Positions 4,674-38,204 of a stretch of DNA of 64,000 nucleotides are shown here, one piece after another. The stretch covers positions 1-64,000 of IMG/VR virus record IMGVR_UViG_3300008267_000016; one strand, written 5' to 3'. The notes under the pieces are model-generated. The model did no database searches, was not told the DNA's origin, and saw nothing but the letters and a program-made list of their open reading frames with translations. The position numbers were made by a program, and so were the translations under genes. This DNA comes from a virus. The number at the start of each line of letters is the position of its first letter. The first letter of the stretch is position 1.

Positions 4674-5927
4674 ATGACTGCAACTCCTAGCGCGTCCAAT
4701 AAGCAACGTTTTGACGTTCTGCGCAAAGCCGGTACGCTTTTCGGTCTTGACCTTAGTGGGTTGTTTGAAGAAGGGGAAGGTGAGGGAACCGGTTTTGGTG
4801 GTTTAGTGCCTTCTTTTGAAGTTACTAGTTTTGTAAAAGGGCGTAGTCCTGGGACTTTAACGTACGAAACACCAAAAACTCCTGCGCAGGAGACAACTTT
4901 TAGTTTAACTGCTCCCACGGAAGCGCTGCCTGCTCCTACTTCCACACAGCCTGCTTCCCTTGGCGGGAGTCAAAATATAACAATCAACATGCCTCGTTTT
5001 GAACCTGAACAGGAGGCAAAGAAGACCTATAACGTTGATGTAACTAAAGGTCAGAGTTCTACATTATTCGGCCATCAAGATTATTTCCGAAATCTTGAAG
5101 CTGGGGTACCAAAAGAGTACCTGAAGGATTGGGTTAGTCAAAATACTGGATTACTAGGAGAAGGTAATAAACCAGGCAAAGGGGGTCTCTATGACGAAAT
5201 GATGGCCGGTGATGTTAAGTTCCCTGGCTTCCTTCCGTCATCCTCCGCTGGCACTGCAGGTGAGGGCGGAACTGCTGAGTCCACGCAAACTACCGCTACA
5301 GACACTACTTCTGCGTCTAGCACCACTGAGCCTACTGTTCGTTTAGCGGGTCAGAAAGTTAAAGCACTTGGTGGTGCTGGTCCTGTGCTCAGTAAGAAAG
5401 AAGCTGAGAGCATAGCCAAGTCTCAGGGACGTACTGTTGCCCAAGTGATGGCAAGTGCACAGAATAAAAATATCGCTATGGGGGCTGGTTTAGTTAACGC
5501 TCTTACTAGTGGAAAGATTTCCGCTACTCCATATAGCGCAGCTGCAAAAGCACTGGCTCCGATGCAAGGCTTAAGACTCAATCAAGGGTCAGCTTACGCC
5601 GGTTTTAGTACTACTGCCACGCCGGCAGTTGCTCCAAATAAATTTGGAGGATCTGGTCAGCCCGCGACTACCACTACTACCCCGATTGTTGTTCCCCGAA
5701 GTGTGTTAGCTGGAACCGCCCAAGGCGGCGGTCAAGCAAGTAGCCAAGGTGGCGGCGGAGGCCAAGGCGGCGGTGGTCAAGGCGGAGGCGGCGGCCAGGG
5801 CGGTGGAAATAAAGGGGGCGGTGGAAGCCAGGCCGGCGGTCAAGGAGGCGGTCAAGGCGGTGGAAATAAAGGTGGCGGAGGCGGCCAAGGTGGCGGAAAT
5901 AAAGGCGGAGGAGGTAAGAATAAGTAA
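4674..5927 (+). CDS. Unrecognised virion-type protein with glycine-rich tail
   Basis: 417 residues, family not recognised. The N-terminal 100 residues are mixed and acidic (FEEGEGEGTGFGG). A middle region of Ser, Thr and Ala is followed by a helical segment around residue 240 (LSKKEAESIAKSQGRTVAQV). The last 70 residues are almost only Gly, Gln, Asn and Lys. The position between terminase and portal suggests a virion or assembly protein, which is inference. A TATACT hexamer at 4623-4628 lies about 45 bases before the start and could be a -10 element. Confidence 0.7.
   Translation: MTATPSASNKQRFDVLRKAGTLFGLDLSGLFEEGEGEGTGFGGLVPSFEVTSFVKGRSPGTLTYETPKTPAQETTFSLTAPTEALPAPTSTQPASLGGSQNITINMPRFEPEQEAKKTYNVDVTKGQSSTLFGHQDYFRNLEAGVPKEYLKDWVSQNTGLLGEGNKPGKGGLYDEMMAGDVKFPGFLPSSSAGTAGEGGTAESTQTTATDTTSASSTTEPTVRLAGQKVKALGGAGPVLSKKEAESIAKSQGRTVAQVMASAQNKNIAMGAGLVNALTSGKISATPYSAAAKALAPMQGLRLNQGSAYAGFSTTATPAVAPNKFGGSGQPATTTTTPIVVPRSVLAGTAQGGGQASSQGGGGGQGGGGQGGGGGQGGGNKGGGGSQAGGQGGGQGGGNKGGGGGQGGGNKGGGGKNK
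5722..5922 (+). repeat. Glycine-rich coding repeat
   Basis: The 3' end of the preceding gene is a degenerate direct repeat made of units like CAAGGCGGCGG and GGTGGAAATAAAGG, coding for GGGGQ and GGGNK modules. The block is much more GC-rich than the flanking DNA and is a likely site of slippage. The open frame on the other strand across it is a by-product of the repeat. Confidence 0.75.
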
Positions 5928-20003: not shown

Positions 20004-20498
20004 ATGGCTTCCACACCAGTAATTATCCTCACCAAGCGCAGCGGTAATTCCTCAGATAGGCCCAATACTTCGACAGTACAAGCCGGCGAAACGGCTATGA
20101 GTTTTGGTGCAGCTGATCCTGGTCTTTACTTCAAAGACTCAGCTGGAGCCATTCGTAAGTTTGGATCGAATCACTACGGCACAACTGCACCTAACTCAAC
20201 CCCCGTTGGCTCTGTGGGAAATTCAGTCGGTGAAACCTGGGCCGACTCTTCTACCTCAAATTATTATTTGAAAGTGTGGACTGGAAGTGTTTGGCAAAAA
20301 GTCGGTGCTGGGTTCGCCGACTCAGCGACAAGTGCTAACTCAGCTAATACAGCTAACACAGCAGTATCTGCAACAGTAGCTAGCGGAATTGCAGTCGTTA
20401 ATGCCCTTCCGCCAGCTTCGCCTGGTTTGACTGTTTATTTAAATTCTGGTGTGAGTGGGCTTTATGTCTCCGCTAATGGCGGCTGGATCCTCACATAG
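20004..20498 (+). CDS. Tail fibre-like virion protein
   Basis: 164 residues. The segment GETAMSFGAADPGLYFKDSA near residues 28-47 is the familiar opening of many phage tail fibre and virion spike proteins (a short domain of the GELA...D..L..KD type). It is followed by GETWADSSTSNYYLKVWTGS, another fibre-type module. A small-residue stretch of SANSANTANTA links to a beta C-terminus. It ends 8 bases inside a convergent leftward gene. Confidence 0.7.
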   Translation: MASTPVIILTKRSGNSSDRPNTSTVQAGETAMSFGAADPGLYFKDSAGAIRKFGSNHYGTTAPNSTPVGSVGNSVGETWADSSTSNYYLKVWTGSVWQKVGAGFADSATSANSANTANTAVSATVASGIAVVNALPPASPGLTVYLNSGVSGLYVSANGGWILT

Positions 20499-21030
20499 AT
20501 CCACGAAGCGTGGCTTTTAACATCCAAGCCCCTTTGAACAACCTGCCGCAAGTATCAGCAGCATAATTTTCAACATCGGGAGCGCCAGTTTCTCGTGCTG
20601 CTTCGACAAGATCTTTTGCAAGCATCGCCCCAGCTTCAAGATTCTTGGTGTACAGCGTCAGACCTTCGCGTGCATCGTAGGTCTTCACAGACGGAAACTT
20701 TTTATAAGCATCGAATAGGCCACACTGACACATCGGCATTAGATAGTCCATGCTGCGGACTAGCTCAGCCAGAGTGTCGAAGTCTCCAGTGTGCTGCTCG
20801 TACTGCCCTTTTAAGAATTCGTGAACAGCTAAGAAATTGGAGCACTCTACATTTAAATGGAGTAGGTGAGCTTGGATGTTTAATTGATATAAATAAGAGG
20901 CGAAGGAGACCATCTGATAAGCAAGGTTATCAGGCGTGGCCTCCTTCGTGAGAATGAGCTCCTCCTTGACAATTTCTTGAGTCGGAGCCTGAGCTGCGCT
21001 TTGGAAAATGTTTGCTAAGGAGGAGTTCAT
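20491..21030 (-). CDS. Dps-like ferritin-fold protein
   Basis: 179 residues, a normal Dps length. Dps proteins form 12-mers that oxidise and store iron and protect DNA from peroxide. The signature region holds His in LHLNVE, a second His 12 residues later in LAVHEFL, then Asp 15 and Glu 19 residues after that. This is exactly the spacing of the Dps ferroxidase ligands H31, H43, D58 and E62 in Listeria Dps numbering; the D47 position is Lys. The basic helix near the end (GRLFKGAWMLKATLRG) could touch DNA. It lies on the strand opposite to the tail genes, next to an HTH gene. Confidence 0.65.
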   Translation of the reverse strand: MNSSLANIFQSAAQAPTQEIVKEELILTKEATPDNLAYQMVSFASYLYQLNIQAHLLHLNVECSNFLAVHEFLKGQYEQHTGDFDTLAELVRSMDYLMPMCQCGLFDAYKKFPSVKTYDAREGLTLYTKNLEAGAMLAKDLVEAARETGAPDVENYAADTCGRLFKGAWMLKATLRGSM

Positions 21031-27285: not shown

Positions 27286-28686
27286 ATGACTGAAACTAAC
27301 GTACCCGCCTGTCCACTTCACGGTGCGCTTCCTCGTGCTCTCCACCCAGAGAATTTCGAAGGGATCGTAACCGTAATTGAAGAACTTATTGAAACGGTAA
27401 GCGGTGTGGGGACTTTAAGTTACTCCAGGTGCCCTTATGGGTATTCTTATAACTTTGAGGGAGTAGTCCGAGCTTTAGAAGACTTAAACGTCAGCGTTAG
27501 TGGCATAAACCTTGGTTTCCCAGACCCTGCTGGTAGCGGGATTATTGGAGGTTCTGGAATTCACGTTGAGTACAGTGGAGGTTACGGAATTATTGAGAGC
27601 CAGATTACTCAGGTTTGGCCTGGTTCTGGTGTAACTCCTGTTTACAGCGGCGAAGGTACAGTTTTTGATGTAAATCTCCTAGGTTTTGCTGGTGTAGATG
27701 TTCTATACAGCGGCACTTATATTCAAGTTTCTGGAACCAAAGACCAGGCTGTAGCTGTTGTTAGTGGTCTTATTGGCGGCGAAGGTATAACGATTGTTGC
27801 AAGCGGCGACACGGCAGTTGTCTCTACCGATTTAGTTGGCCAAGGCTCCGTTAACTTCTCCTACAACAATGCTGGTGTTGGTGTCATATCCGGACAAGCT
27901 CAACAGCTACTAGTTGCTGGGTCTGGTACTAGTGTCCGTTCGAGCGGTGACTATCAGATTGTCGATGTCGGCGTTCTTGGCGGCGGACTAACTGATGTTA
28001 CTTACTCTGGTTCGTTTATTACCGTTGATGGCGGAACTACGTTAGTCGCCGGATCGGGTACAAGCGTTCGCACCAGTGGCGACTATCAAATTGTTGATGT
28101 CGGTATTCAAGCCGGCTCCAACATGAGCGTTGTCTACTCAGGTCAGTTTGTTGGATTGGCCAGTTCCGCCAGCGCAGGCTCCGCTGTGGTGACTGTATCT
28201 GGTGATCCTGGTTTCAACTACATAGGCGGTTCACTCTGGTTTGACACTAACGAGGGCCGTCTGTTTGTTTATGCGTCTGGTAACGGCATAGAAGAACCTG
28301 ATTGGTATGTAGCTAACGCCGAAGCTCTAGCTATTAAGAGTGAAGTGCCACCTTCAGGCACTGGTGGATTTAACGCACCACCGTTAGACGGAACCCTCTG
28401 GTTCAATACCTTGATGGGTTCACTCTTTGTTTACGATTCAACAACAAGTGGTTGGTATGAGTCCGCAGCATCCAGAACTCCTGTATATGACTCGGTAGCT
28501 CCCGTTGCTGCTGTTGACGGCACCTTGTGGACCGATTCGGGCACTAACATTATTCGCGTTTGGGATGGGTCTATCTGGGCAGATGTCACTGCTAGCGGTA
28601 GTCCTTATATTCCGCCTCCTGTTCCTTCTGGTTTAGATGCTGAAGCCGAAGGGGAAGTGATTGGCCTAATCATGGGTCTGAGCTAA
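27286..28686 (+). CDS. Tail fibre protein with beta repeats and a GLI-x-x-LS end
   Basis: 466 residues with GGGAGGG upstream of the ATG. The first 75 residues hold two related segments (NFEGIVTVIEELIETVSGVG and NFEGVVRALEDLNVSVSGIN). Next is a long Gly/Ser/Val beta region with a duplicated unit LVAGSGTSVRSSGDYQIVDV and LVAGSGTSVRTSGDYQIVDV. Three modules of the type DGTLWFNT...VYD...W follow. The last residues, EVIGLIMGLS, recur in the two repeat proteins downstream. It is probably a receptor-binding or baseplate-proximal fibre. Confidence 0.75.
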   Translation: MTETNVPACPLHGALPRALHPENFEGIVTVIEELIETVSGVGTLSYSRCPYGYSYNFEGVVRALEDLNVSVSGINLGFPDPAGSGIIGGSGIHVEYSGGYGIIESQITQVWPGSGVTPVYSGEGTVFDVNLLGFAGVDVLYSGTYIQVSGTKDQAVAVVSGLIGGEGITIVASGDTAVVSTDLVGQGSVNFSYNNAGVGVISGQAQQLLVAGSGTSVRSSGDYQIVDVGVLGGGLTDVTYSGSFITVDGGTTLVAGSGTSVRTSGDYQIVDVGIQAGSNMSVVYSGQFVGLASSASAGSAVVTVSGDPGFNYIGGSLWFDTNEGRLFVYASGNGIEEPDWYVANAEALAIKSEVPPSGTGGFNAPPLDGTLWFNTLMGSLFVYDSTTSGWYESAASRTPVYDSVAPVAAVDGTLWTDSGTNIIRVWDGSIWADVTASGSPYIPPPVPSGLDAEAEGEVIGLIMGLS

Positions 28687-28857: not shown

Positions 28858-29250
28858 GTGCTTTTATCTTTTGTAGCTCAGCAACCTATACAAGTAGGTG
28901 ATGCAGTTGCTGTAAGCACTACAGTATCAGGTCAGATAATTCCAGCTAATCCGTCTGGTTTAGTTTCAGCCAGTGTCGTAGGTGTAGCTATAGACACAGT
29001 GAGTGCTGGAGGCCTTTGCAGAGTTGTTAGTGACTCTGCGGCCTCCGTTTACTCCTCTCTTTCTCCTGGTTCGAGTTATTACTTAAGCCCTAGTGGAGGC
29101 TACGTAGTTAATTACGCGACATACGTTACAGAGTTTTATCAACTCGGTGTGTCTAGCTTGTATTTAACTCAACTGGGCATAGCTGTCAATCAAAGCTCTA
29201 TTCGCGTGAACCCAAGTGAGCCTAAGCTCGTCGTCAGTGGTTACTTGTAA
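28858..29250 (+). CDS. Small virion protein, paralogue of the next gene
   Basis: 130 residues from a GTG start. The module VGDAVAVSTTVSGQIIPANP, VVGVAIDTVSAGGLCRVV, LSPGSSYYLSPSGGYV, LGIAVNQSSIRV is repeated in order in the next gene, so the two are diverged duplicates. The fold reads as a small beta domain often seen in phage fibres and capsid spikes. A structural role on the tail is likely. No catalytic motif. Confidence 0.65.
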   Translation: MLLSFVAQQPIQVGDAVAVSTTVSGQIIPANPSGLVSASVVGVAIDTVSAGGLCRVVSDSAASVYSSLSPGSSYYLSPSGGYVVNYATYVTEFYQLGVSSLYLTQLGIAVNQSSIRVNPSEPKLVVSGYL

Positions 29251-29279: not shown

Positions 29280-29804
29280 TTGTTGTCGGTGTCAAACAGG
29301 TCGATCTTCAACCGTAATTACACTAGCTATCAATCCGATGGTACTACCGTATTCTTAGCGAACGGTAGGGGTGTTGTTACAAATCCTGCTCCTGAGATAA
29401 CTCTAGTAGCGGGAGCTGCATTAGTTGCCGGTGCTTGCGTAGCAGCTAGTGGTAATTATGTAATCCCGGCCACTGCTTTGAGCGGTAGCCCAACTTATGC
29501 GTTCTCTCCTATAGGGTTTGCTCAGAGTTCAGCTACTGTTGGTAACCCAGTTGTAATTAATTTAGATGGAGTTGTTAATTTAACTGGCGCCAATATCACG
29601 GCTGAGTCTTCGTTAGTGCCAGGTCAATATTATTACCTTTCAAAATTCAACGGTCAGGTTGTTAGATACTCCACAGCTTCTGGAATTATCTCAGGTTCCG
29701 GATCTAATGCGTATGCCGCATCCTCCCCCGTGGGAGTAGCTTTAAACGGAAATCAATTGAGTATTGAGATTGCTCCTCCCGTTCTTCTTTATACTGGAGC
29801 TTAA
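29280..29804 (+). CDS. Virion protein with the same beta module
   Basis: 174 residues. The start is uncertain: TTG at 29280 or 29283, or GTG at 29289. After a 40-residue N-terminal part (SNRSIFNRNYTSYQ, then STVFLANGRG-like sequence) comes LVAGACVAASGNYVIPATAL, IGFAQSSATVGNPVVINL, LVPGQYYYLSKFNGQVV and VGVALNGNQLSIEI, parallel to the previous gene. Probably a fibre or spike subunit. The stop is followed 11 bases later by the first repeat-protein gene with AAGGAGAAG as ribosome binding site. Confidence 0.65.
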   Translation: MLSVSNRSIFNRNYTSYQSDGTTVFLANGRGVVTNPAPEITLVAGAALVAGACVAASGNYVIPATALSGSPTYAFSPIGFAQSSATVGNPVVINLDGVVNLTGANITAESSLVPGQYYYLSKFNGQVVRYSTASGIISGSGSNAYAASSPVGVALNGNQLSIEIAPPVLLYTGA

Positions 29805-29815
29805 GGAGAAGAGTT

Positions 29816-31327
29816 ATGGTAGTCCGCAGGCCGCTTGTTCTTGTTAGTGGTGCTCTTTCTGAGCTCCCTTTAGGGGATAGTATTGTTACAACTGCTTCTG
29901 GCGGGACACTAACAGCAGGTAGTGGTCTAGTCGGCGGTGGCGATACTAATGAAACTATTCGACTAGACGTTGCTCTTGCGACTCAACCTAGCGGACTCGT
30001 ATTTGTTGGCAACAAAATTGGTGTTGATGGTGTTGCTCTAGTACGTTCTCAACAAGCACTTGCTTCTGGTAACTCAGCTCTACTTAATTCTTCAATTGCA
30101 CTAGCTTCCGGAAACGCAGCTCTTTCTGTAGGTCAGACAGCATTAGCTTCTGGTAATGCTGGTTTATCTGTTGCCGCTACAGCTTTAGCATCTGGAAATC
30201 AAGCCCTATCAATTTCTTTAACAGCTCTCAATTCAGGTATTGCTGCACTTGATGTTGCCAGTGATGCACTTGCATCTGGTAGTGCAGCTGTAACAGATTC
30301 AGCTGTTGCCTTAGCTTCTGGAAACGCAGCTTTATCATTATCCGAAGTTGCTCTAGCTTCTGGCAATGCTGGTCTGTCGAACGCCGTAGTTGCTTTAGCT
30401 TCGGGTAACGCAGCTTTAGGTTTAAGCAATACTGCGTTAGCTTCAGGTAATGCTGCTCTTAGTGTTTCCGTAAACGCTTTAGCTTCCGGTAACGCAAGTC
30501 TTAGCACTTCTTTAAGAGCACTTAGTTCTGGCAACTCTGCATTATCTGATGCTCAGGTTGCTCTAGCTTCTGGTAACGCTGCCTTAAATGTTTCTGTTAC
30601 TGCTTTAGCTTCTGGTAACTCAGCAGTACTTCTCGCAGATCAAGCCCTTGCTTCTGGAAACGCTGCCTTAGTTGATTCAGCTAAAGCACTAGCTTCTGGA
30701 AACGCAGCTATCGTTCTGTCAAATAGCGCGGTGGCTTCTGGAGCCGCTGCAATTCTTTTATCAGACATTGCCTTAGCCTCTGGTTTAGCAGCACAGGCAA
30801 CAGCAGATAAAGCACTAGCTTCTGGAAACTCTGCACTAACTATTGCCGTTAGTGCGCTTGCTTCTGGTAACGCCGGTCTATCTGTTGCGTCGACAGCGTT
30901 AGCTTCAGGTAACGCAGCGCTTGCGGCAGTAAATACCGCACTTGCTTCGGGAAATGCAGGTATTTCTTTAGGTCTAAGTGCATTAGCTTCTGGTAACGCA
31001 GCTCTTCTTTCTGCTTCTGTAGCTTTATCCTCTGGTAATGCTGGTTTAGCTCTTGCTTCCACAGCGCTAGCTTCTGGTAATGCTGGGCTTTTAGTAGGCT
31101 CTAGAGCTCAAGCCTCAGGTAACGCAGGAATTTCTGTAGGCCTTACGGCTTTAAGTTCTGGTAACTCGGCTATTTCCGTGGCCAATGCTGCACTAGCTTC
31201 AGGTAACGCAGCTTTAACTATTGTGCCTGCTGCTCAAGCATCAGGTAACGCAGCCCTTGCAGCCTATTTCGCTAACCCTGGCATATCCCAGGGCGAAGCT
31301 ATCGGTCTAATTATCGCGCTTTCGTAA
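29816..31327 (+). CDS. 503-residue fibre protein of 29 tandem 14-residue repeats
   Basis: Residues 1-80 form an N-terminal domain (SGALSELPLGDSIVTTASGG, TLTAGSGLVGGGDTNETIRL, FVGNKIGVDG). Residues 81-472 are 28 repeats of exactly 14 residues without insertions, consensus ALASGNAALSVSxT, and a 29th unit runs into YFANPG. The final 14 residues end EAIGLIIALS. Two heptads per repeat with Leu or Ala at positions 2 and 9 are compatible with an alpha-helical coiled-coil shaft, although Gly in every unit is unusual and a beta fold is possible. The gene just downstream has the identical 80 + 28x14 + 17 + 14 layout. Confidence 0.85.
   Translation: MVVRRPLVLVSGALSELPLGDSIVTTASGGTLTAGSGLVGGGDTNETIRLDVALATQPSGLVFVGNKIGVDGVALVRSQQALASGNSALLNSSIALASGNAALSVGQTALASGNAGLSVAATALASGNQALSISLTALNSGIAALDVASDALASGSAAVTDSAVALASGNAALSLSEVALASGNAGLSNAVVALASGNAALGLSNTALASGNAALSVSVNALASGNASLSTSLRALSSGNSALSDAQVALASGNAALNVSVTALASGNSAVLLADQALASGNAALVDSAKALASGNAAIVLSNSAVASGAAAILLSDIALASGLAAQATADKALASGNSALTIAVSALASGNAGLSVASTALASGNAALAAVNTALASGNAGISLGLSALASGNAALLSASVALSSGNAGLALASTALASGNAGLLVGSRAQASGNAGISVGLTALSSGNSAISVANAALASGNAALTIVPAAQASGNAALAAYFANPGISQGEAIGLIIALS
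30056..31282 (+). repeat. 42-base tandem coding repeat, 29 units
   Basis: DNA coding for the 14-residue repeats. Units share GCTTCTGGTAA but differ at synonymous positions, so the array is diverged rather than recently expanded. Open frames on the opposite strand here are created by the repeat. It is not a CRISPR array: there are no unique spacers and the frame is continuous. Confidence 0.88.
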
Positions 31328-31328
31328 A

Positions 31329-32840
31329 ATGGCGACTTACCGCAGTCTAGTTTTTTCTAGTGGATTTATATCTGAGACTAGCGACGCAGATAGTGTGTCG
31401 ATATTGGGTGATTTAATCGCTGGTAGTGGCTTAGGTGGAGCTGTATTACCTCTTGGCGTTGACAATACAGTAAGTGTATCGATACCAACAGCAGCCGCAG
31501 CCAGTGGTTTATTAGTTACAAACAACAAGCTTGCTCTAGATGGTGGCGATTTAGTACTATCACAAACTGCACTAAATTCTGGAGTTCTAGCTCAAGCTAA
31601 TTCGAGCGTAGCTCTTTCTTCTGGTCTTGCTTCATTATCTGTTGCCGTAACTGCTGCAGCCTCTGGTAATTCGTCTATATCTGCTTCTTTAAATTCGTTA
31701 AACAACTCTAATGTTGCTATAAGTTCTGGAATACTTTCTTTAGTAGATACTAACTCTGCGTTAGTCGAGTCAAATATAGCTTTAAGTTCAGGATCTGCAG
31801 CTCTTATAAACAGTTCAGAGGCACTTGCTTCTGGTCTGGCTAGTGTAAATACCTCTTTGACTGCTTCTGCATCAGGAAATGCAGCGTCTTTCATTGCTGG
31901 TTCTGCTCTTTCTTCTGGTAATGCAGCTTTATTTAATTTAAATTCTGCTGTTGTATCAGGCACAGAAGCAATCCTTGTTGCACAACGTGCAGTAAACTCA
32001 GGTTACGCAGCAGACCAAGTTAGTACGTCTGCGTTTGCTTTATCTACTGATGCTGTAATCGCTTCAAATACGGCCTTAGCCTCCGGCGTGGTCGCTTTAA
32101 ATGAAGCTAATCAAGCATTTGCGTCTGGCACTTTTGCAGTTCTTGAGGCGAATACTGCTGCAGCTTCTGGCAACCTAGCTGTAAGTGCAGCTTCAGTAGC
32201 CTTAGCTTCAGGGAATGCTGCGTTATTTAACTCAGTACAGGCTTTAGATGACGCTGATGATGCTCTGTTAACAAATTTATTTGTACATTTAATTAGTGAC
32301 GATGCTGTAGAGACCTCTGCGGTAGCTATTGCTTCAGGTTCTGCAGCTATTAATGTATCTTCCGCTGCTATTGCTTCTGGCCAAGCCGCTTTTGCTCCGT
32401 CTGCGATTGCGCAAGCTTCTGGCAATGCGGCTTTAGCTCTTGCCCCTGCCGCCGTCGCTTCGGGGAACCAAGCTATAGCTGTTTCTTTAACAGCGCTAGC
32501 TTCAGGTAATTCTGCTTTATCAAGTGCTTTTAGTGCTCAACTTTCAGGTAATGCAACTATAGCTTTAGCTTCAACTGCTTTAAGTTCTGGCAATAGCTCT
32601 ATATCTGTTTCGTTAACAGCCTTAGCTTCTGGTAATTCTTCTTTAGTAGTCTCTAACGCTTCTCAATTAAATTCTAATAGAGCTATATCCTCTGGTTTAT
32701 ATTCTGCTGTTTCTGGTGTAGATGCACTAAGCGACAGTTTAGAAGCTTTAGCTTCCGGGAATGCCGCGTTAGCTTTAATCGTGGGGAACCCACCCGTCAC
32801 AGCTGAACAGTTAACGGGCCTAATCTTTGCCTTAAGTTAA
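31329..32840 (+). CDS. Second 503-residue fibre protein of 29 tandem 14-residue repeats
   Basis: Starts one base after the first repeat protein. Residues 1-80 resemble its N-terminal domain (RSLVFSSGFISETSDADSVS, LIAGSGLGG, LVTNNKLALDG). Repeats again run 28 x 14 residues from residue 81 plus a partial unit ending VGNPP, but units are far more degenerate (ALSSGLASLSVAVT, SLNNSNVAISSGIL, VHLISDDAVETSAV). The end EQLTGLIFALS matches the shared C-terminal motif. Identical total length and repeat number despite divergence point to selection on length and register, as expected if the two assemble side by side. Confidence 0.85.
   Translation: MATYRSLVFSSGFISETSDADSVSILGDLIAGSGLGGAVLPLGVDNTVSVSIPTAAAASGLLVTNNKLALDGGDLVLSQTALNSGVLAQANSSVALSSGLASLSVAVTAAASGNSSISASLNSLNNSNVAISSGILSLVDTNSALVESNIALSSGSAALINSSEALASGLASVNTSLTASASGNAASFIAGSALSSGNAALFNLNSAVVSGTEAILVAQRAVNSGYAADQVSTSAFALSTDAVIASNTALASGVVALNEANQAFASGTFAVLEANTAAASGNLAVSAASVALASGNAALFNSVQALDDADDALLTNLFVHLISDDAVETSAVAIASGSAAINVSSAAIASGQAAFAPSAIAQASGNAALALAPAAVASGNQAIAVSLTALASGNSALSSAFSAQLSGNATIALASTALSSGNSSISVSLTALASGNSSLVVSNASQLNSNRAISSGLYSAVSGVDALSDSLEALASGNAALALIVGNPPVTAEQLTGLIFALS
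31569..32795 (+). repeat. Degenerate 42-base tandem coding repeat, 29 units
   Basis: The periodicity of 42 bases is visible mainly at the protein level. Base composition is more AT-rich than in the first array. No unit has been gained or lost relative to it. Confidence 0.78.
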
Positions 32841-32942: not shown

Positions 32943-33260
32943 ATGGCAAGCTTCTATAACGTTGCTAGAGCCAACGTAAACAGCAGCCCGGTAACGGTAC
33001 TGACTTCTGACGCAGATTCTACAATTGTTCTAAGTATTCTTGTTGCAAATAATATTGGTTCTTCTGCTGTTGATTGCACAGTAAGCATGAACACAGGTGC
33101 AACAATTAATAATTATTTAGGTTATACCATTCCTGTTCCTGCTGACTCAAACGTTGATTTTATTGCTAACAAGTATATTCTTCCTAGCGGTAAGAGCATT
33201 CGCGTCACATCTAGTACTTCAGGTCAATTAGATGTAGCAATTTCTTACGTCGTGGTCTGA
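32943..33260 (+). CDS. Small beta-rich virion protein
   Basis: 105 residues: SSPVTVLTSDADSTIVLSIL, VANNIGSSAVDCTVSM, then LPSGKSIRVTSSTSGQLDVA and a C-terminal strand. Proteins of this form (a beta sandwich of roughly 100 residues near fibre genes) are frequent in cyanophages and are taken as virion proteins. Two TAGACT hexamers lie in the 102-base gap upstream and may be -10 elements. Confidence 0.65.
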   Translation: MASFYNVARANVNSSPVTVLTSDADSTIVLSILVANNIGSSAVDCTVSMNTGATINNYLGYTIPVPADSNVDFIANKYILPSGKSIRVTSSTSGQLDVAISYVVV

Positions 33261-33262
33261 TT

Positions 33263-33928
33263 ATGGATAATCAAAATTGGTCTAACTATTACTTCACTAA
33301 AAACGGGTCGGTACCTTCTTATCCTCCTTCTAGGATTCGTCTTTCGTCAGGTTTTACTAAATACACTTCATCGTGCAGTTTAGAAGATCTGCATGATGCT
33401 GGTTATGAAGGACCGATTGAGCTTATTCCTGTTGGAGCCAATCAAAAACGTGTCTGGGATTTTGCTTCTAAAAAATTTATTTTAGTTAGTGCAGAAGGTA
33501 AAGATTCTACACTTGTTAACCGTGAGGTTCGTTCTTACTGTTCTGAGCAGATTAACTGTTTAGACTTAGATGATAAATCTTCTTATGATGATGATTTTCG
33601 TAATGCTTGGAGTCGTTACATAACAACGCTAGTAAATCTTTTAAAGAAACCAGAGTCAGAATTATTAACTTTCGAAGATCTTCCTGAGATTCCCACAGTT
33701 GTGGAGAATCAAGCAGACCACAATGCTAAACTAGCTCAGGACTTTATTAACGAAAATTTCGAACGGTGGAAAGGTCAGTACGAAACCTATGGCTTCTGCT
33801 TCGAAGTTCCGTTAGAAGTTCAACCCTATTTTTCTATTCCGTCTGATTGGGTTGCAGGATCCGAACCCCTACCTCCAGGAACGAGTAGTTACTTCGAACA
33901 CGCTGTACCCCCTCAACCGCTGCCATGA
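33263..33928 (+). CDS. Unrecognised tail-region protein
   Basis: 221 residues, no low complexity until the Pro-rich C-terminus. YYFTKNGSVPSYPPSRIRLS and LEDLHDAGYEGPIELIPVGA suggest a folded N-terminal domain recognising a fibre or assembly partner. The middle is helical and acidic (LLKKPESELLTFEDLPEIPT). Overlap with the collar gene by 4 bases implies coupling. A tail-fibre assembly chaperone is one possible role, not demonstrated. Confidence 0.6.
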   Translation: MDNQNWSNYYFTKNGSVPSYPPSRIRLSSGFTKYTSSCSLEDLHDAGYEGPIELIPVGANQKRVWDFASKKFILVSAEGKDSTLVNREVRSYCSEQINCLDLDDKSSYDDDFRNAWSRYITTLVNLLKKPESELLTFEDLPEIPTVVENQADHNAKLAQDFINENFERWKGQYETYGFCFEVPLEVQPYFSIPSDWVAGSEPLPPGTSSYFEHAVPPQPLP

Positions 33929-34971
33929 CTTCGAACAAAAAACTAGGTAATTTTACGGGAAAACAAACCCTTCCTAGTGCAGCAGGTGCGCAAGGTGCCT
34001 ACGTTAGTCCTTCTGAGGTTTACCAACAAAGACTTGTCGGAGGGTGGCCGGCCACTCCCGTAGGCGCTTGGGTTGACCCTGGTCAACTTGTTTACGCCCT
34101 TTCTAGCGGAGTTGTTTCTGCTATCAGCGGAACTAACTATGCTATTTGTGATGGTTCTGAGCACGATAGAACAGCTTTCGCCAGCCTTTATGCGGTTGTC
34201 GGCAACCGTTATGGTAACGGTAACGGAATTTCCACTTTTAATACCCCTCCGATGACGCCTCGGTTTGGGTATACAAAAGCAACCACTGGATCTGGTGTCC
34301 AAGCTCCTAGTGGTGTTGCAGTCCTCCCAAACCATACACATACTTTAGAAGTAGGAGGCGTACAAAACCCAGGCCAAGCGAGTAACGGAGGCGGTGGCGC
34401 TACAGATATCGCTTCGTTCACCTTTCAATCTAGTTTCGACGGCGGTGGGGACAACCACGGTAGGCACGTAGAGGTTATCCCACTTTTGTCTAATACGGCT
34501 CAAACAGCACCTGTTGGTACTGTTGTGATTTGTTTAACGCCTAATAATGTTTCAGCTATATCAGCTGTCGCCCCTATCAATACAGTGGTTGCAAGCGGGC
34601 AAGCTCTCAGTCGTACTACCTACGCTACATTGTTTGAGCGGATTGGTACTTTATATGGTAGTGGTAACGGCACCACTACTTTTAATTTGCCCGATTATAG
34701 AGGTGTGTTCCTCCGTGCCCCAGTAGGTAGAAACACTATCCAACCTTCTGGATATAGAAACGGATCTTATGGTGAAGATGGTTTTGTATCTCATCGTCAT
34801 GGCTATAATCCGGCTTATTATCTTGCCAGTGGTGGTAGGCGTTGTGACTATACTCCAATCGGCACTGCAACGACTACACCAGCCTCTGGCCCATCATCTA
34901 TCGGTATTGCTGGTGAAAATAGACCAGCCAACATTACCTGCACTTACTTAGTCGTTGTTTCGGAGATCTGA
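33925..34971 (+). CDS. Tail collar protein with two collar domains
   Basis: 348 residues, beginning with ATGA overlap. Two phage tail-collar modules are visible. The first is YAICDGSEHDRTAFASLYAV with GNGNGISTFNTPPMTPRFGY (about residues 72-115). The second is VVASGQALSRTTYATLFERI with GSGNGTTTFNLPDYRGVFLR (about 215-262). The pattern (G-x-L/E-x-R-T-x-Y/F-x-x-L-F, then T-F-N-L-P-D-x-R-G) is the family signature found at the tips of fibres. Several His residues (HRHGYNP) could bind metal in the trimer. Confidence 0.85.
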   Translation: MTSNKKLGNFTGKQTLPSAAGAQGAYVSPSEVYQQRLVGGWPATPVGAWVDPGQLVYALSSGVVSAISGTNYAICDGSEHDRTAFASLYAVVGNRYGNGNGISTFNTPPMTPRFGYTKATTGSGVQAPSGVAVLPNHTHTLEVGGVQNPGQASNGGGGATDIASFTFQSSFDGGGDNHGRHVEVIPLLSNTAQTAPVGTVVICLTPNNVSAISAVAPINTVVASGQALSRTTYATLFERIGTLYGSGNGTTTFNLPDYRGVFLRAPVGRNTIQPSGYRNGSYGEDGFVSHRHGYNPAYYLASGGRRCDYTPIGTATTTPASGPSSIGIAGENRPANITCTYLVVVSEI

Positions 34972-34974
34972 TCG

Positions 34975-35514
34975 ATGCTTACCCAAGTTATTTTTTCAGC
35001 TCGGTACTTAGGTCCTTCTTTTGTTGCGAACAACGGCGCAACTTACTATCTGTGTGACGGGCAAGCTCTTTCTCGCACTACTAACTCAAAGCTGAGTGAT
35101 GTTTGGCCGGTTAATGCCTACGGAAGCACCGTAAACAATATTCACTTGCCTCCTTTAGAAGGTCTTTACCTCCGTGGCTATGATTTTGGGTCTGGTCGTG
35201 ACTCGGAAGCTGCAAGTCGAACGGCACTTTCGGGCTCTCTTCCTACCGGAAATAACATCGGTGCTTACCAGCCCGCAAACCTTAAGTTACATACTCACGT
35301 AAATGGACGTCAAGGAGGTTCAGGGCCTTGTGCTGATGGCGCAGGTCAAGACGGAGGTAGCAGCCCTGATACACCTATTATTACCGTTACGTCAAATTCA
35401 ACGTCGCTGAATACGCTTAACTCTACTGTTGCCGCTACAGTCTCTGGTACGACAACCACTGCTTTTGATGTCAGCAACTGCTCCTTCTGGGTCTACATCG
35501 AAGGAAGTAATTAA
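34975..35514 (+). CDS. Single-domain tail collar protein
   Basis: 179 residues, three bases after the two-domain collar gene. YYLCDGQALSRTTNSKLSDV and STVNNIHLPPLEGLYLRGYD follow the collar signature. The C-terminal half has LKLHTHVNGRQGG with a His pair and a Gly/Asp-rich loop, then Thr/Ser-rich strands. It is a likely partner or alternative tip for the preceding gene. Confidence 0.8.
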   Translation: MLTQVIFSARYLGPSFVANNGATYYLCDGQALSRTTNSKLSDVWPVNAYGSTVNNIHLPPLEGLYLRGYDFGSGRDSEAASRTALSGSLPTGNNIGAYQPANLKLHTHVNGRQGGSGPCADGAGQDGGSSPDTPIITVTSNSTSLNTLNSTVAATVSGTTTTAFDVSNCSFWVYIEGSN

Positions 35515-36034
35515 TTTTCATCCTATAGTTTTAGATAACTTTTTAAGCTCTTCAGATTTCTTAATGCTTTCTGAAGAGTTTAACTATATGCCTTTGCGCT
35601 TATGTAATTGGAGTGACTCTAATAATATTAAGTTATTTTTTGGAGTTCGAAAAACGGATAGACCAAACCATCTTGAGTCTTTAGCATCAATTATTTCTCT
35701 TAAGGTTAAAAAACACGTTAAACGTAAATTTTTCTTTAAACGACTTCACTTAAATGGCCAAGTCTACGGACAAGAGGGTCAGCTTCATCAGGATTCACAA
35801 GAACCCACAGATATAACTGTTTTAATTTTTACGAACCGGGAGTGGAACTCAGCGTGGGGCGGCCATTTTTCGTTTGCTGATTTGTCTGATCAAGAAGTTC
35901 ACACTGTAACTTATAAACCAAATCGTGCTGTTATTTTCCCTTCGTCGTTGTATCATTGCGGAAACGCTCCTTTAAGGTTTACCGACCGGATGCGGACATC
36001 TGCAGCTTTTCTCTTTGAGACTTGTGAGTACTGA
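35468..36034 (+). CDS. 2-oxoglutarate/Fe(II) oxygenase (prolyl hydroxylase-like)
   Basis: About 188 residues. The double-stranded beta-helix signature is present: LHQDSQEPTDITVLIFTNRE gives the HxD pair, GGHFSFAD follows, then the distal His in PSSLYHCGNAP and Arg in RMRTSAAF, the 2-oxoglutarate contact. The start is uncertain: the ATG at 35468 (used) lies inside the collar gene, and homologous sequence seems to begin near its stop. It hydroxylates a protein, sugar or base; the target is unknown. First of three such enzymes in 3.4 kb. Confidence 0.75.
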   Translation: MSATAPSGSTSKEVINFHPIVLDNFLSSSDFLMLSEEFNYMPLRLCNWSDSNNIKLFFGVRKTDRPNHLESLASIISLKVKKHVKRKFFFKRLHLNGQVYGQEGQLHQDSQEPTDITVLIFTNREWNSAWGGHFSFADLSDQEVHTVTYKPNRAVIFPSSLYHCGNAPLRFTDRMRTSAAFLFETCEY

Positions 36035-36614
36035 AACTTTTATTCGTCGCTACAACATACCTGATGTTACTCTGTGCGATGAAATCATAAAATGGTTTGA
36101 AGACCACCCTGAGAAACAAGGGACTGGTGTTGTCCAGTCACGAGAAGGTAAACCTATAGTAAATAAAGATTATAAAGATGGTACGTGTATTTCTGTGAAT
36201 GATATTAATTATGCTTACACTCAGCCACCTCTGCGTTCGTTTCTTATTTGGCTTTGGGACTGTGTGAATCTGTATTTAGAAGATTTCCCCGAGCTTAAAA
36301 ATTCTTGTTTTGCTATGAGAGAGGGGTTTAATATTCAAAGATTTCTACCCCCAAGTCAAGGGTTTAAAGTTTTTCACCATGAAAGGATATCGTATCAAGT
36401 CTGTCCTCGTTTACTTGTCTTTATGCTTTATTTAAACGATGTAGAAGATAAAGGCGGTACAGAATTCAAGTACTACAACCATGTTGAAAAAGCTCAACGC
36501 GGCAAATTGTTGATTTGGCCAACAGACTTCACCCACACCCACCGTGGTGTAGTATCGCCAACAGAAAAAAAGTACATTATTACTGGCTGGTATGGTCTAA
36601 TCCCTGCAGAGTAA
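36024..36614 (+). CDS. Second 2-oxoglutarate/Fe(II) oxygenase
   Basis: 196 residues from a GTG at 36024 overlapping the upstream stop by 11 bases. FKVFHHERISYQ carries an H-x-E variant of the metal-binding pair. LLVFMLYLNDVEDKGGTEFK is the classic core strand and turn, and DFTHTHRGVVSPTEKKYIIT supplies the distal His and the Lys or Arg contact. Use of Glu instead of Asp is known in some family members but may change activity. It overlaps the convergent carbamoyltransferase gene by 18 bases. Confidence 0.75.
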   Translation: MSTETFIRRYNIPDVTLCDEIIKWFEDHPEKQGTGVVQSREGKPIVNKDYKDGTCISVNDINYAYTQPPLRSFLIWLWDCVNLYLEDFPELKNSCFAMREGFNIQRFLPPSQGFKVFHHERISYQVCPRLLVFMLYLNDVEDKGGTEFKYYNHVEKAQRGKLLIWPTDFTHTHRGVVSPTEKKYIITGWYGLIPAE

Positions 36615-38204
36615 TCTCATATTTTCTGGAGTATACAGATAATCTATCTTTGTGTTATTTAAAGTACTTACAGCGTCTTCAAACGTTTCTATTATTGGTT
36701 GCTTATCGACATTAAATGAAGTATTACCTAGTATAGGTACTCCTGTAATTTCGTAAAAATTTTGTATTAGCTCAAAGTAATTTTTATTTTGTTCTTTTGT
36801 TATTGTTTGTATCCTGCACGTACCGTCGACATGTACTATGGCAGGTATCTTTTCTTTTTTTAAACACGTAGCATTTAGAGTCATAAAAGGGTTTTCTTCG
36901 ATATCAAACCATTTTTCTACTTCTTCCTGAAGTATAGTACCTGCAAAAGGCCTAAAACTTTCTCTGTTTTTTATTCGGTTGATTATATCTTTACCGTTTG
37001 GCAGACAAGGGTTAAAAAGAATAGAACGGTTTCCTAATGCTCTAGCACCTGCTTCTGACCTCCCCTGGAACAGAGCGACTGTTTTTCCCTTGGATAACAA
37101 AAGAGCTACTTCTTTACTTGTTGTCCTGTCTCCGATTTCTTTAAAAAGTAACTCCTTTTTTGGCCCTAGGTAGATATTCTCTAACTTTCTCTTTGTCTGG
37201 TCTTTTTGCTCAGCGTGGTGCACCAACTTAGCTGCGCCATACGATAGACCTCCGTCACCAGCCATAGGGTCAATAAAAAAATTAAACTCGCTTAGTTTAT
37301 CTTTGTAGTATTTATTGGCTACTATATTTAATGCAAAGCCTCCAGATAACACTATATTTTTTGTGTTACTCAGTTTTATTGCTTTTTTTATGTAACTTAA
37401 AGCTTTTTCTTGTGTTGCTTTTTGTACGGCAAATGCTAGATCTGCTTGTAGCTGTCCCCAATCGTTTGTAATAAGCTCAGGGTAACTGTAGGTGTTTATC
37501 TTATTGTCATTAGTAAAAAGATTTTTATTCGCTTCTTTTTTGGGGCCTGTCAGTATCTCTGGGATGTTTTTATTTGCTGCTCCGTATGCTGCTAACCCCA
37601 TGGTTTTACCACAGTCTAGATTTCTAAATCCTTGATGATTAGCTACTGCTTGATACATACCGCCTATATCGATATGGGAAGTTATTTCGACTTCTGTGTT
37701 ATGAAGTAAGGAACTAACAGCGCTAAAATTACTTCCTCTGTGCGGATCGACAACTAGTTTTTTGTACAGCAGCCTGAAATTATCTGGATACGAGGCTTCG
37801 TATACGGATGTTGTTTCAGCACCAAAAGCTCCGTTATTTAGCGCGAATTCTGAACCTCTCCCATCAAAAACTACGCAGACTGCTTCAGTGAAACCAGAAC
37901 TGTAGAAAGCCGAAGCAGCGTGGGCTAAATGATGTATATCGTTGTGAACACTAAATCGTTTAAAAGTTATTCCATTTTTTCTAAGTAAATGTTTTATGAA
38001 GTTTTCATTTCCGCAGTGAGTTACTATAACTGAATCTATTTCTGTGACTATATCTTTTATTTGACCTATACATTTTATAGGTTCTGAGTCATATTTTATT
38101 TTTGATAATCTTTCTTCCTCTATGAATAGTTCAACTTCCCCATTAATTAGTAAGCAAACACTTGAATTATGCTTACCACAATGTATTCCTAATACTGAGT
38201 TCAT
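36597..38204 (-). CDS. Carbamoyltransferase (NodU/TobZ family)
   Basis: 535 residues, full length. These enzymes place a carbamoyl group on a hydroxyl of a sugar or antibiotic through a carbamoyl-adenylate. The ASKHA-like domain starts LGIHCGKHNSSVCLLINGEV, with the His pair HHLAHAASAFYSSGF and the loop VLSGGFALNIVANKYY. The C-terminal domain has FQGRSEAGARALGNRSIL and GVPILGNTSFNVDKQPII, both hallmarks. It is leftward and follows the third oxygenase with a 4-base ATGA overlap, so the two form an operon. Confidence 0.93.
   Translation of the reverse strand: MNSVLGIHCGKHNSSVCLLINGEVELFIEEERLSKIKYDSEPIKCIGQIKDIVTEIDSVIVTHCGNENFIKHLLRKNGITFKRFSVHNDIHHLAHAASAFYSSGFTEAVCVVFDGRGSEFALNNGAFGAETTSVYEASYPDNFRLLYKKLVVDPHRGSNFSAVSSLLHNTEVEITSHIDIGGMYQAVANHQGFRNLDCGKTMGLAAYGAANKNIPEILTGPKKEANKNLFTNDNKINTYSYPELITNDWGQLQADLAFAVQKATQEKALSYIKKAIKLSNTKNIVLSGGFALNIVANKYYKDKLSEFNFFIDPMAGDGGLSYGAAKLVHHAEQKDQTKRKLENIYLGPKKELLFKEIGDRTTSKEVALLLSKGKTVALFQGRSEAGARALGNRSILFNPCLPNGKDIINRIKNRESFRPFAGTILQEEVEKWFDIEENPFMTLNATCLKKEKIPAIVHVDGTCRIQTITKEQNKNYFELIQNFYEITGVPILGNTSFNVDKQPIIETFEDAVSTLNNTKIDYLYTPENMRLLCRD

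Follow-up and report, generated by a model that had tools for sequence, protein, structure and literature searches.

Phage fibre shafts are generally regarded as homotrimers. In phage T4, the long tail fibre, which consists of several gene products, and the short fibre gp12 each combine a shaft with a Collar-domain tip. Here, we describe two adjacent genes, A and B, whose products would likewise form a shaft served by a Collar-domain tip; the T4 fibres differ from them in being homotrimers joined end to end, without two chains matched unit for unit. The genes lie in a 64,000-nucleotide stretch of viral DNA (hereafter, the window), positions 1 to 64,000 of IMG/VR record IMGVR_UViG_3300008267_000016, the full length of which is 85,268 bases. 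Judged from blastp segments, the virus is related to Synechococcus phage S-EIV1, with identities of 69% for the major head protein, 47% for a portal-like protein and 53-54% for the terminase; S-EIV1 was the sole match of the portal-like protein among 50,697 phage records (E 1e-5). We give about even chances to the reading that A and B are two co-translated, length-matched shaft chains of one tail fibre that docks a separate Collar tip.

Two published systems are closest to this arrangement. The long and short fibres of Anabaena phage A-1(L) resemble the proposed fibre as trimeric cyanophage fibres comprising a stem and a binding domain but, according to the available part of that report, differ from the proposed A/B shaft in that a single protein makes up each trimer (PMC10966104). 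In the virophage DSLV2, three consecutive Collar (PF07484) tail proteins form a 1:1:1 heterotrimer on co-expression, and the authors related them to Synechococcus phage tail proteins; hetero-oligomeric Collar tips as such are not new (PMC12724248). The window cassette, too, encodes three Collar stretches, one chain having two and the following chain one, whereas the DSLV2 proteins, as described in the available sections, are three, tip-sized and without a repeat shaft or a length-matched shaft pair (PMC12724248). We recognised no paired equal-length fibre shaft in the literature on S-EIV1, on phage 14-residue repeats or on hetero-oligomeric tail fibres, most of it represented by descriptions only, and neither PMC7048315 nor PMC11042391 reports one in the accessible portions. 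An initial sequence-only reading of the window had stated that no fibre of this design was known, which agrees with our literature and phage-record searches except that hetero-oligomeric Collar tips had already been published (PMC12724248).

Genes A (29816-31327) and B (31329-32840), which like all features given below for this region are on the plus strand, were found where the sequence-only reading had placed two adjacent genes of 503 residues each, with B starting 1 nt past the A stop. Both putative shaft chains divide into a head of 80 residues (A, 29816-30055; B, 31329-31568), a shaft spanning residues 81-486 that keeps a 14-residue phase over 29 periods of 42 nt (A, 30056-31273; B, 31569-32786), and 17 C-terminal residues that end in GLI(I/F)ALS, hereafter the GLI motif (A, NPGISQGEAIGLIIALS, 31274-31324; B, NPPVTAEQLTGLIFALS, 32787-32837). 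The division first proposed, 80 + 28x14 + 17 + 14, is the same arithmetic as 80 + 29x14 + 17 with a different cut. Aligned without gaps, the two proteins are identical at 217 of 503 residues, and at 25 of 80 in the head. The A head (RRPLVLVSG...ELPLGDS, next GTLTAGSGLVGGGDT..RLDVAL..PSGL..) has homologues on other fibre proteins of the lineage and carries the fibre-family pattern RRPLV.. then GGG[DN]..RLDVAL..SGL..; the B head has diverged, and B heads group on one side of a branch, separate from A heads.

Identity at a lag of 14 residues was 0.49 in A (z = 21.6) and 0.31 in B (z = 12.1), compared to 0.14 and 0.13 expected by composition, and it peaked again at lag 28. Gene A is highly regular: the consensus is ALASGNAALxxxxT, S-G occupies positions 4-5 in 29/29 units, and S4 and G5 were invariant across all 377 units from 13 A orthologues. 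Gene B keeps the phase, with S4 and G5 present in 80% and 82% of 319 units (11 orthologues), but many of its units are degenerate; a strict-motif chain covers only 10 units in the window, and residues 305-332 are barely recognisable as repeat. The distinction between one regular and one degenerate gene thus held up, while the description of the repeats as uninterrupted is right for phase and wrong for sequence. In relatives, strict-motif chains span 11 or 16 units in long B and 8 in short B. We set the count for B at 29 because of its phase, its length, its conserved ends and alignments that are free of gaps in the repeat part.

Evidence for a length match between the two chains comes from relatives, which we collected by scanning IMG/VR with A, B, the structural-module protein gp466, the head protein and their profiles. 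Three of the scans returned the best 80 of 102, 118 and 89 relatives, with weaker relatives outside view, and the head-protein scan returned the best 80 of at least 572; most of these 80 stop short of the fibre region, and no open reading frame (ORF) with a 14-residue repeat was found in these 80 head-protein loci. Loci (L numbers below) were joined into clusters by 1000 identical bases, and the GLI motif was called by regular expression. In the long class, A was 503 aa in 17/17 contigs where it was complete and in one frame, and B was 501-504 aa in 15/15 complete contigs. An alignment of 13 A sequences contained zero gaps, and gaps in an alignment of 11 B sequences were restricted to columns 53-55 and 65, that is, to the head. 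A short class has 8 units per gene, with A and B of 211/211 aa in 3300040856_003618, 3300030102_008413 and 3300030708_004102 and of 209/207 aa in 3300025141_000055. Length counts left out contigs that cut B (3300013131_000079, 3300017721_001740 and 3300037847_007584, the last with an A of 211 aa) or A (3300007541_001675 and 3300030395_002052), fragments (3300013131_000150, 3300017721_001480, 3300025093_001302 and 3300025093_000354) and broken frames (B of 3300037847_008284; A and B of 3300046170_000464). The broken frames, at L116 2029-3511 and L122 6001-8904, respectively, may reflect assembly error or real loss.

In every one of the 14 dereplicated clusters that have A and B complete, the two repeat counts were equal: 29/29 in 10 and 8/8 in four. 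No unequal pair was found among these clusters from the best-80 scans, and the comparison of relatives that the sequence-only reading had called for revealed no independent variation. Between orthologues, the best match of a given unit was the unit at the same position for 28 of 29 units in A and 26 of 29 in B; units are therefore orthologous one to one, with no sign of loss, gain or movement within the long class. We regard the equal-count architecture seen in these sequences as real, and its recurrence in two classes supports a match in length between the chains.

How often the counts changed was estimated from trees. Phages with the pair formed a single clade in a gp174 tree (support 100/99). 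A concatenated tree of gp174, gp130, gp466 and both heads placed the short class in two positions, equivalent to two changes, with two long end branches; forcing it into one clade was not rejected (approximately unbiased test, p-AU 0.297). By this estimate, one or two paired changes separate the classes, each altering A and B alike by exactly 21 units. In a head tree based on 82 columns and carrying a long-branch warning, long and short B grouped together (96/97), which places the A/B duplication before the class split, and plain duplication therefore cannot explain both 29/29 and 8/8.

These data bear directly on the possibility that there is no length constraint at all and that counts were frozen by DNA divergence, with equality inherited from the gene duplication or from an old tract conversion. 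At the DNA level, neighbouring units share only 59% identity in A and 47% in B, and no exact in-phase repeat is longer than 22 and 15 bp, respectively; contrary to the initial premise, these repeats do not slip easily, and freezing by divergence does play a real part. Yet because the A/B split is older than the classes, frozen counts would still require an exact 21-unit change in both genes, and divergence cannot by itself make two genes change together. Similarity between A and B units was no higher in register (0.426) than in permutations (0.421, s.d. 0.006, p 0.22), which argues against recent conversion but would allow for an old, eroded one. We consider this explanation unlikely. In-register similarity had also been tried as proof of whole-gene duplication and was rejected, as it did not exceed the permutations. 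Growth of the tracts from 8 to 29 units might have left higher-order blocks of units behind, but a search for such blocks yielded no clear lag peak.

Tandem fibre genes elsewhere in the lineage offer a comparison, with 11 clusters having three complete genes. All three genes encode 611-646 residues in seven of these clusters, while three (L260, L280 and L291) mix forms of ~247 and ~615 residues. In L267, genes of 619 and 616 aa are common to two contigs, which have a third of 616 versus 564 aa, a difference of 52 residues that equals the repeat period of these proteins. Tandem paralogous fibres can therefore change length singly, whereas the counts of A and B were never observed to differ; on the other side, adjacent fibre paralogues in this lineage are often alike in length (8/11 triplets), which counts in favour of frozen counts. 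Triplet loci with related heads were L275, L277, L278, L279 (L259), L282, L285, L286 (L284), L267, L260, L280 and L291. Many triplet fibre genes show the 52-residue period, and in L134/L135 the third gene differs by 52 residues; we take these fibres to be propeller-like.

The identification of A and B as fibre shafts is best supported by a single-gene relative, L102, in which the head and repeats are followed on the same chain by a C-terminal domain (residues 126-234) that matches a cyanophage PSS2 protein annotated as a fiber protein (39%, E 8e-14), with an overlapping stretch matching the tail fibre of S-CBP2 (30%, E 1e-6). This and other single-gene S-EIV1-like relatives in IMG/VR (L100, L131 and L097) share with A and B a related head and the 14-residue ASGNAAL repeat. 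They differ in carrying the C-terminal domain on their own chain, whereas A and B lack a C-terminal globular domain and end in the GLI motif, and in having no Collar cassette (32/32 clusters without the GLI motif and with at least 4.5 kb downstream). Complete single-gene relatives have 1-9 strictly phased units; L131 has more, but its repeats are broken by an insertion and its head was missed by the profile.

Database searches were less informative. Neither A (E 1e-5) nor B and short A (E 0.01) matched any of the 50,697 phage records, and neither A nor B matched Pfam. At an E limit of 10, A hit 11 records, but in 10 of them just the first 23 residues matched (best E 0.2); these were roseophage genes with annotations as virion protein, tail protein, hypothetical protein and, once, sialate O-acetylesterase. 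A pattern scan of genome contigs with A5 matched 597 stretches and yielded no relatives. With no Pfam match, no convincing sequence relative in the PDB and no confident fold, A and B could in principle be low-complexity secreted or capsid decoration proteins without shaft function. We consider this very improbable given the fusion of the head and repeats to a tail-fibre domain, the position of A and B next to Collar-domain genes and after head and portal genes, and purifying selection on their coding sequence. Between the window and L002, synonymous divergence (dS) was 1.5 for A and 1.4 for B and nonsynonymous divergence (dN) 0.22 and 0.35, that is, a dN/dS of about 0.14 and 0.25.

Where A and B lack a tip of their own, one may be supplied from downstream. 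The Collar cassette begins with gp105 (32943-33260) and gp221 (33263-33928, without a Pfam match), followed by a putative double-Collar tip protein with two PF07484 stretches (33925-34971; E 1.4e-27) and a putative single-Collar tip protein with one (34975-35514; E 0.0059, 17 versus 24 bits and thus under the Pfam cut-off). The same composition was found in relatives, with two PF07484 stretches in 6/6 further long partners and a single below-cut-off stretch in 3/3 short partners. The double-Collar gene was followed by the single-Collar gene in 21/22 clusters; in the exception, L198, the sequence compared stops 162 bases past the double-Collar gene. At L243 (1639-5844) and L303 (8538-11843), this gene pair is duplicated in tandem.

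Presence of the cassette followed the GLI ending closely. We compared 50 clusters with an A-type fibre, having excluded 27 of 77 with less than 4.5 kb past the fibre gene, and found the cassette in 18/18 clusters with the motif versus 0/32 without. Across all 77, 19 clusters had both, two had the motif only and 56 had neither; in the two motif-only clusters, the contig stops 1.2 and 0.4 kb on. The association is not merely one clade's inheritance, because two single-gene clusters with both the GLI ending and the cassette, L204 (144 aa) and L297 (132 aa), fall outside the pair clade in the gp174 tree, in which deep forks are weak. Two other loci stood apart: L268 has homologues of gp105 and gp221 without Collar genes or a GLI ending, and L228 encodes a 217-aa Collar-like protein adjoining a fibre with a different head (MAIQSPIVLASG..), outside the cassette pattern. 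The L228 head was unmatched by the profile, and the locus was excluded from the 77.

The motif also occurs upstream of A. The protein gp466 (27286-28686) ends GEVIGLIMGLS in the window and carries a GLI ending in 14/16 pair clusters, compared to 0/43 other clusters; of the two exceptions, L301 has a divergent VIQLIQSLG and L302 none. In L197, L198, L199 and L272, the gp466 homologue has 3-4 ASGxAxx units ahead of its ending. At L198 1866-2954 and L199 5101-6189, it was a 362-aa protein with three to four 14-residue units and a GLI-like ending. The two genes between gp466 and A, gp130 (28858-29250) and gp174 (29280-29804), are conserved neighbours that served as phylogeny markers.

Within the pair, the start of B lay -1 to 3 nt from the A stop at 17/17 junctions inspected. 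The gap was 1 nt in long pairs (2 nt in one) and 3 nt in L124, L197, L198 and L199, and in L127 the genes overlap by 1 nt. This near-contact would fit coupled expression, possibly through translational coupling.

We then have to ask whether A and B are instead two separate homo-oligomeric fibres of one virion, with lengths matched so that they reach the same plane or a shared Collar tip. It is consistent with this that A, B and gp466 end in a similar GLI motif and that the cassette lies downstream, and the heads of A and B are unlike, which would let them attach at different sites. The GLI ending also occurs in phages with a single fibre gene, so a shaft can probably be made from one chain, and the tail fibres of A-1(L) are, in the part of the report available, trimers of one protein each (PMC10966104). 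On the other hand, unit-for-unit equality in both classes exceeds what reaching the same plane demands, and the conserved near-contact of the genes suggests equal amounts of product, which two fibres would need less. We take this possibility seriously but doubt it.

The preferred reading, of two shaft chains in one fibre, leads to the following mechanism, which we infer from sequence. The unlike N-terminal heads of A and B would fix the chains to the virion, and the 14-residue repeats would make a rod. The common C-terminal GLIxALS peptide would dock a separate tip formed by the two Collar proteins, double and single, whose genes lie a short way downstream. Equal repeat numbers would arise because the chains, possibly coupled in translation, lie side by side in register; a hetero-oligomeric shaft, with A and B in contact, would be the simplest reading of equal counts and adjacent genes. 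The sequence-only reading had suggested either chains held in register or a jointly set fibre length; the length match is supported by our results, whereas chain contact and a shared shaft belong to the model. A more specific version would be an asymmetric heterotrimer in which A and B are joined by a third chain, either the GLI tail of gp466 or another copy of A or of B, forming one register-held shaft with an asymmetric trimeric tip of three Collar modules on two chains and with repeat number as a two-gene length ruler, although we think it improbable that all of these details hold.

Structure prediction did not help to separate these possibilities. AlphaFold2 modelled A (13-sequence alignment) as beta strands with turns near S-G-N, at a mean predicted local distance difference test (pLDDT) score of 56 and a predicted template modelling (pTM) score of 0.55; the best of five models had blocks of up to pLDDT 90 within residues 310-480, and the other four averaged 36-41. 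For B (11-sequence alignment), it predicted helices (mean pLDDT 46, pTM 0.22). Because confidence was low and the folds opposite, we rejected these models as a basis for any structural claim; AlphaFold2 has also been reported, in the available part of one study, to invent beta-solenoids for perfect repeats (PMC11795689). Kyte-Doolittle hydropathy, examined for the heptad pattern expected of a trimeric coiled-coil shaft, had a dominant 7-residue component (0.49 in A, 0.61 in B), with an additional 2-residue component in A and a 3.5-residue component that was weak except in short B (0.41). Foldseek matched the A model to no PDB entry at E <= 0.001, the top match being a curli subunit at 0.12, and its viral matches, 7/197 at E <= 0.001, were set aside as uninformative with TM-scores <= 0.20. 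Searching the PDB by sequence, the A profile gave eight matches at E <= 1, the best a designed protein (E 6.8e-4) and the rest designed proteins and two natural proteins (E 0.03 and 0.7), and the short-A profile gave seven, including a phage tail-tube protein (E 0.11); none was convincing as a relative.

Several observations weigh against two matched chains in one shaft. At the family level, A matches the PHROG tail fibre only weakly (E 0.0024), and the low-confidence folds of A (beta) and B (helix) are opposite. The independent paired changes number just one or two, DNA divergence of the units would slow repeat loss regardless, and triplets of similar length are frequent. Odd pairs could be missed because the scans kept the best 80 and were seeded with pairs. 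Finally, L204 (seven repeats) and L297 (three repeats) have the GLI ending and cassette without B, so a second chain is unneeded there.

Other features of these genomes were recorded in passing. We found no ORF with a 14-residue period above threshold in the S-EIV1 genome; it has one with a 20-residue period (L010 21-731), part of a gene crossing the start of the circular record. In the window, 20491-21030 encodes a product 45.6% identical to an S-EIV1 protein annotated as DNA-binding ferritin-like, and GGC/GGA-rich tandem repeats lie at 5743-5914, close to where ORF 4674-5927 ends, in the region separating the terminase and portal-like genes. Positions 36597-38204 and 953-2125 had PHROG matches to a Nol-like carbamoyltransferase and a glycosyltransferase, which are possible surface-modification genes, and the ORFs at 35429-36614 presumably resemble 2OG-Fe(II) oxygenases.

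If the proposed reading is true, a repeat count that changes between lineages while staying equal within each genome would document, in nature, a fibre that is hetero-oligomeric or matched in length, and fibre length could be read from two genes that each keep their own unit order. The link between the GLI peptide and the Collar cassette provides a rule, open to testing, for how modular tips dock in a cyanophage-like group for which a single head-protein scan confirmed at least 572 places.

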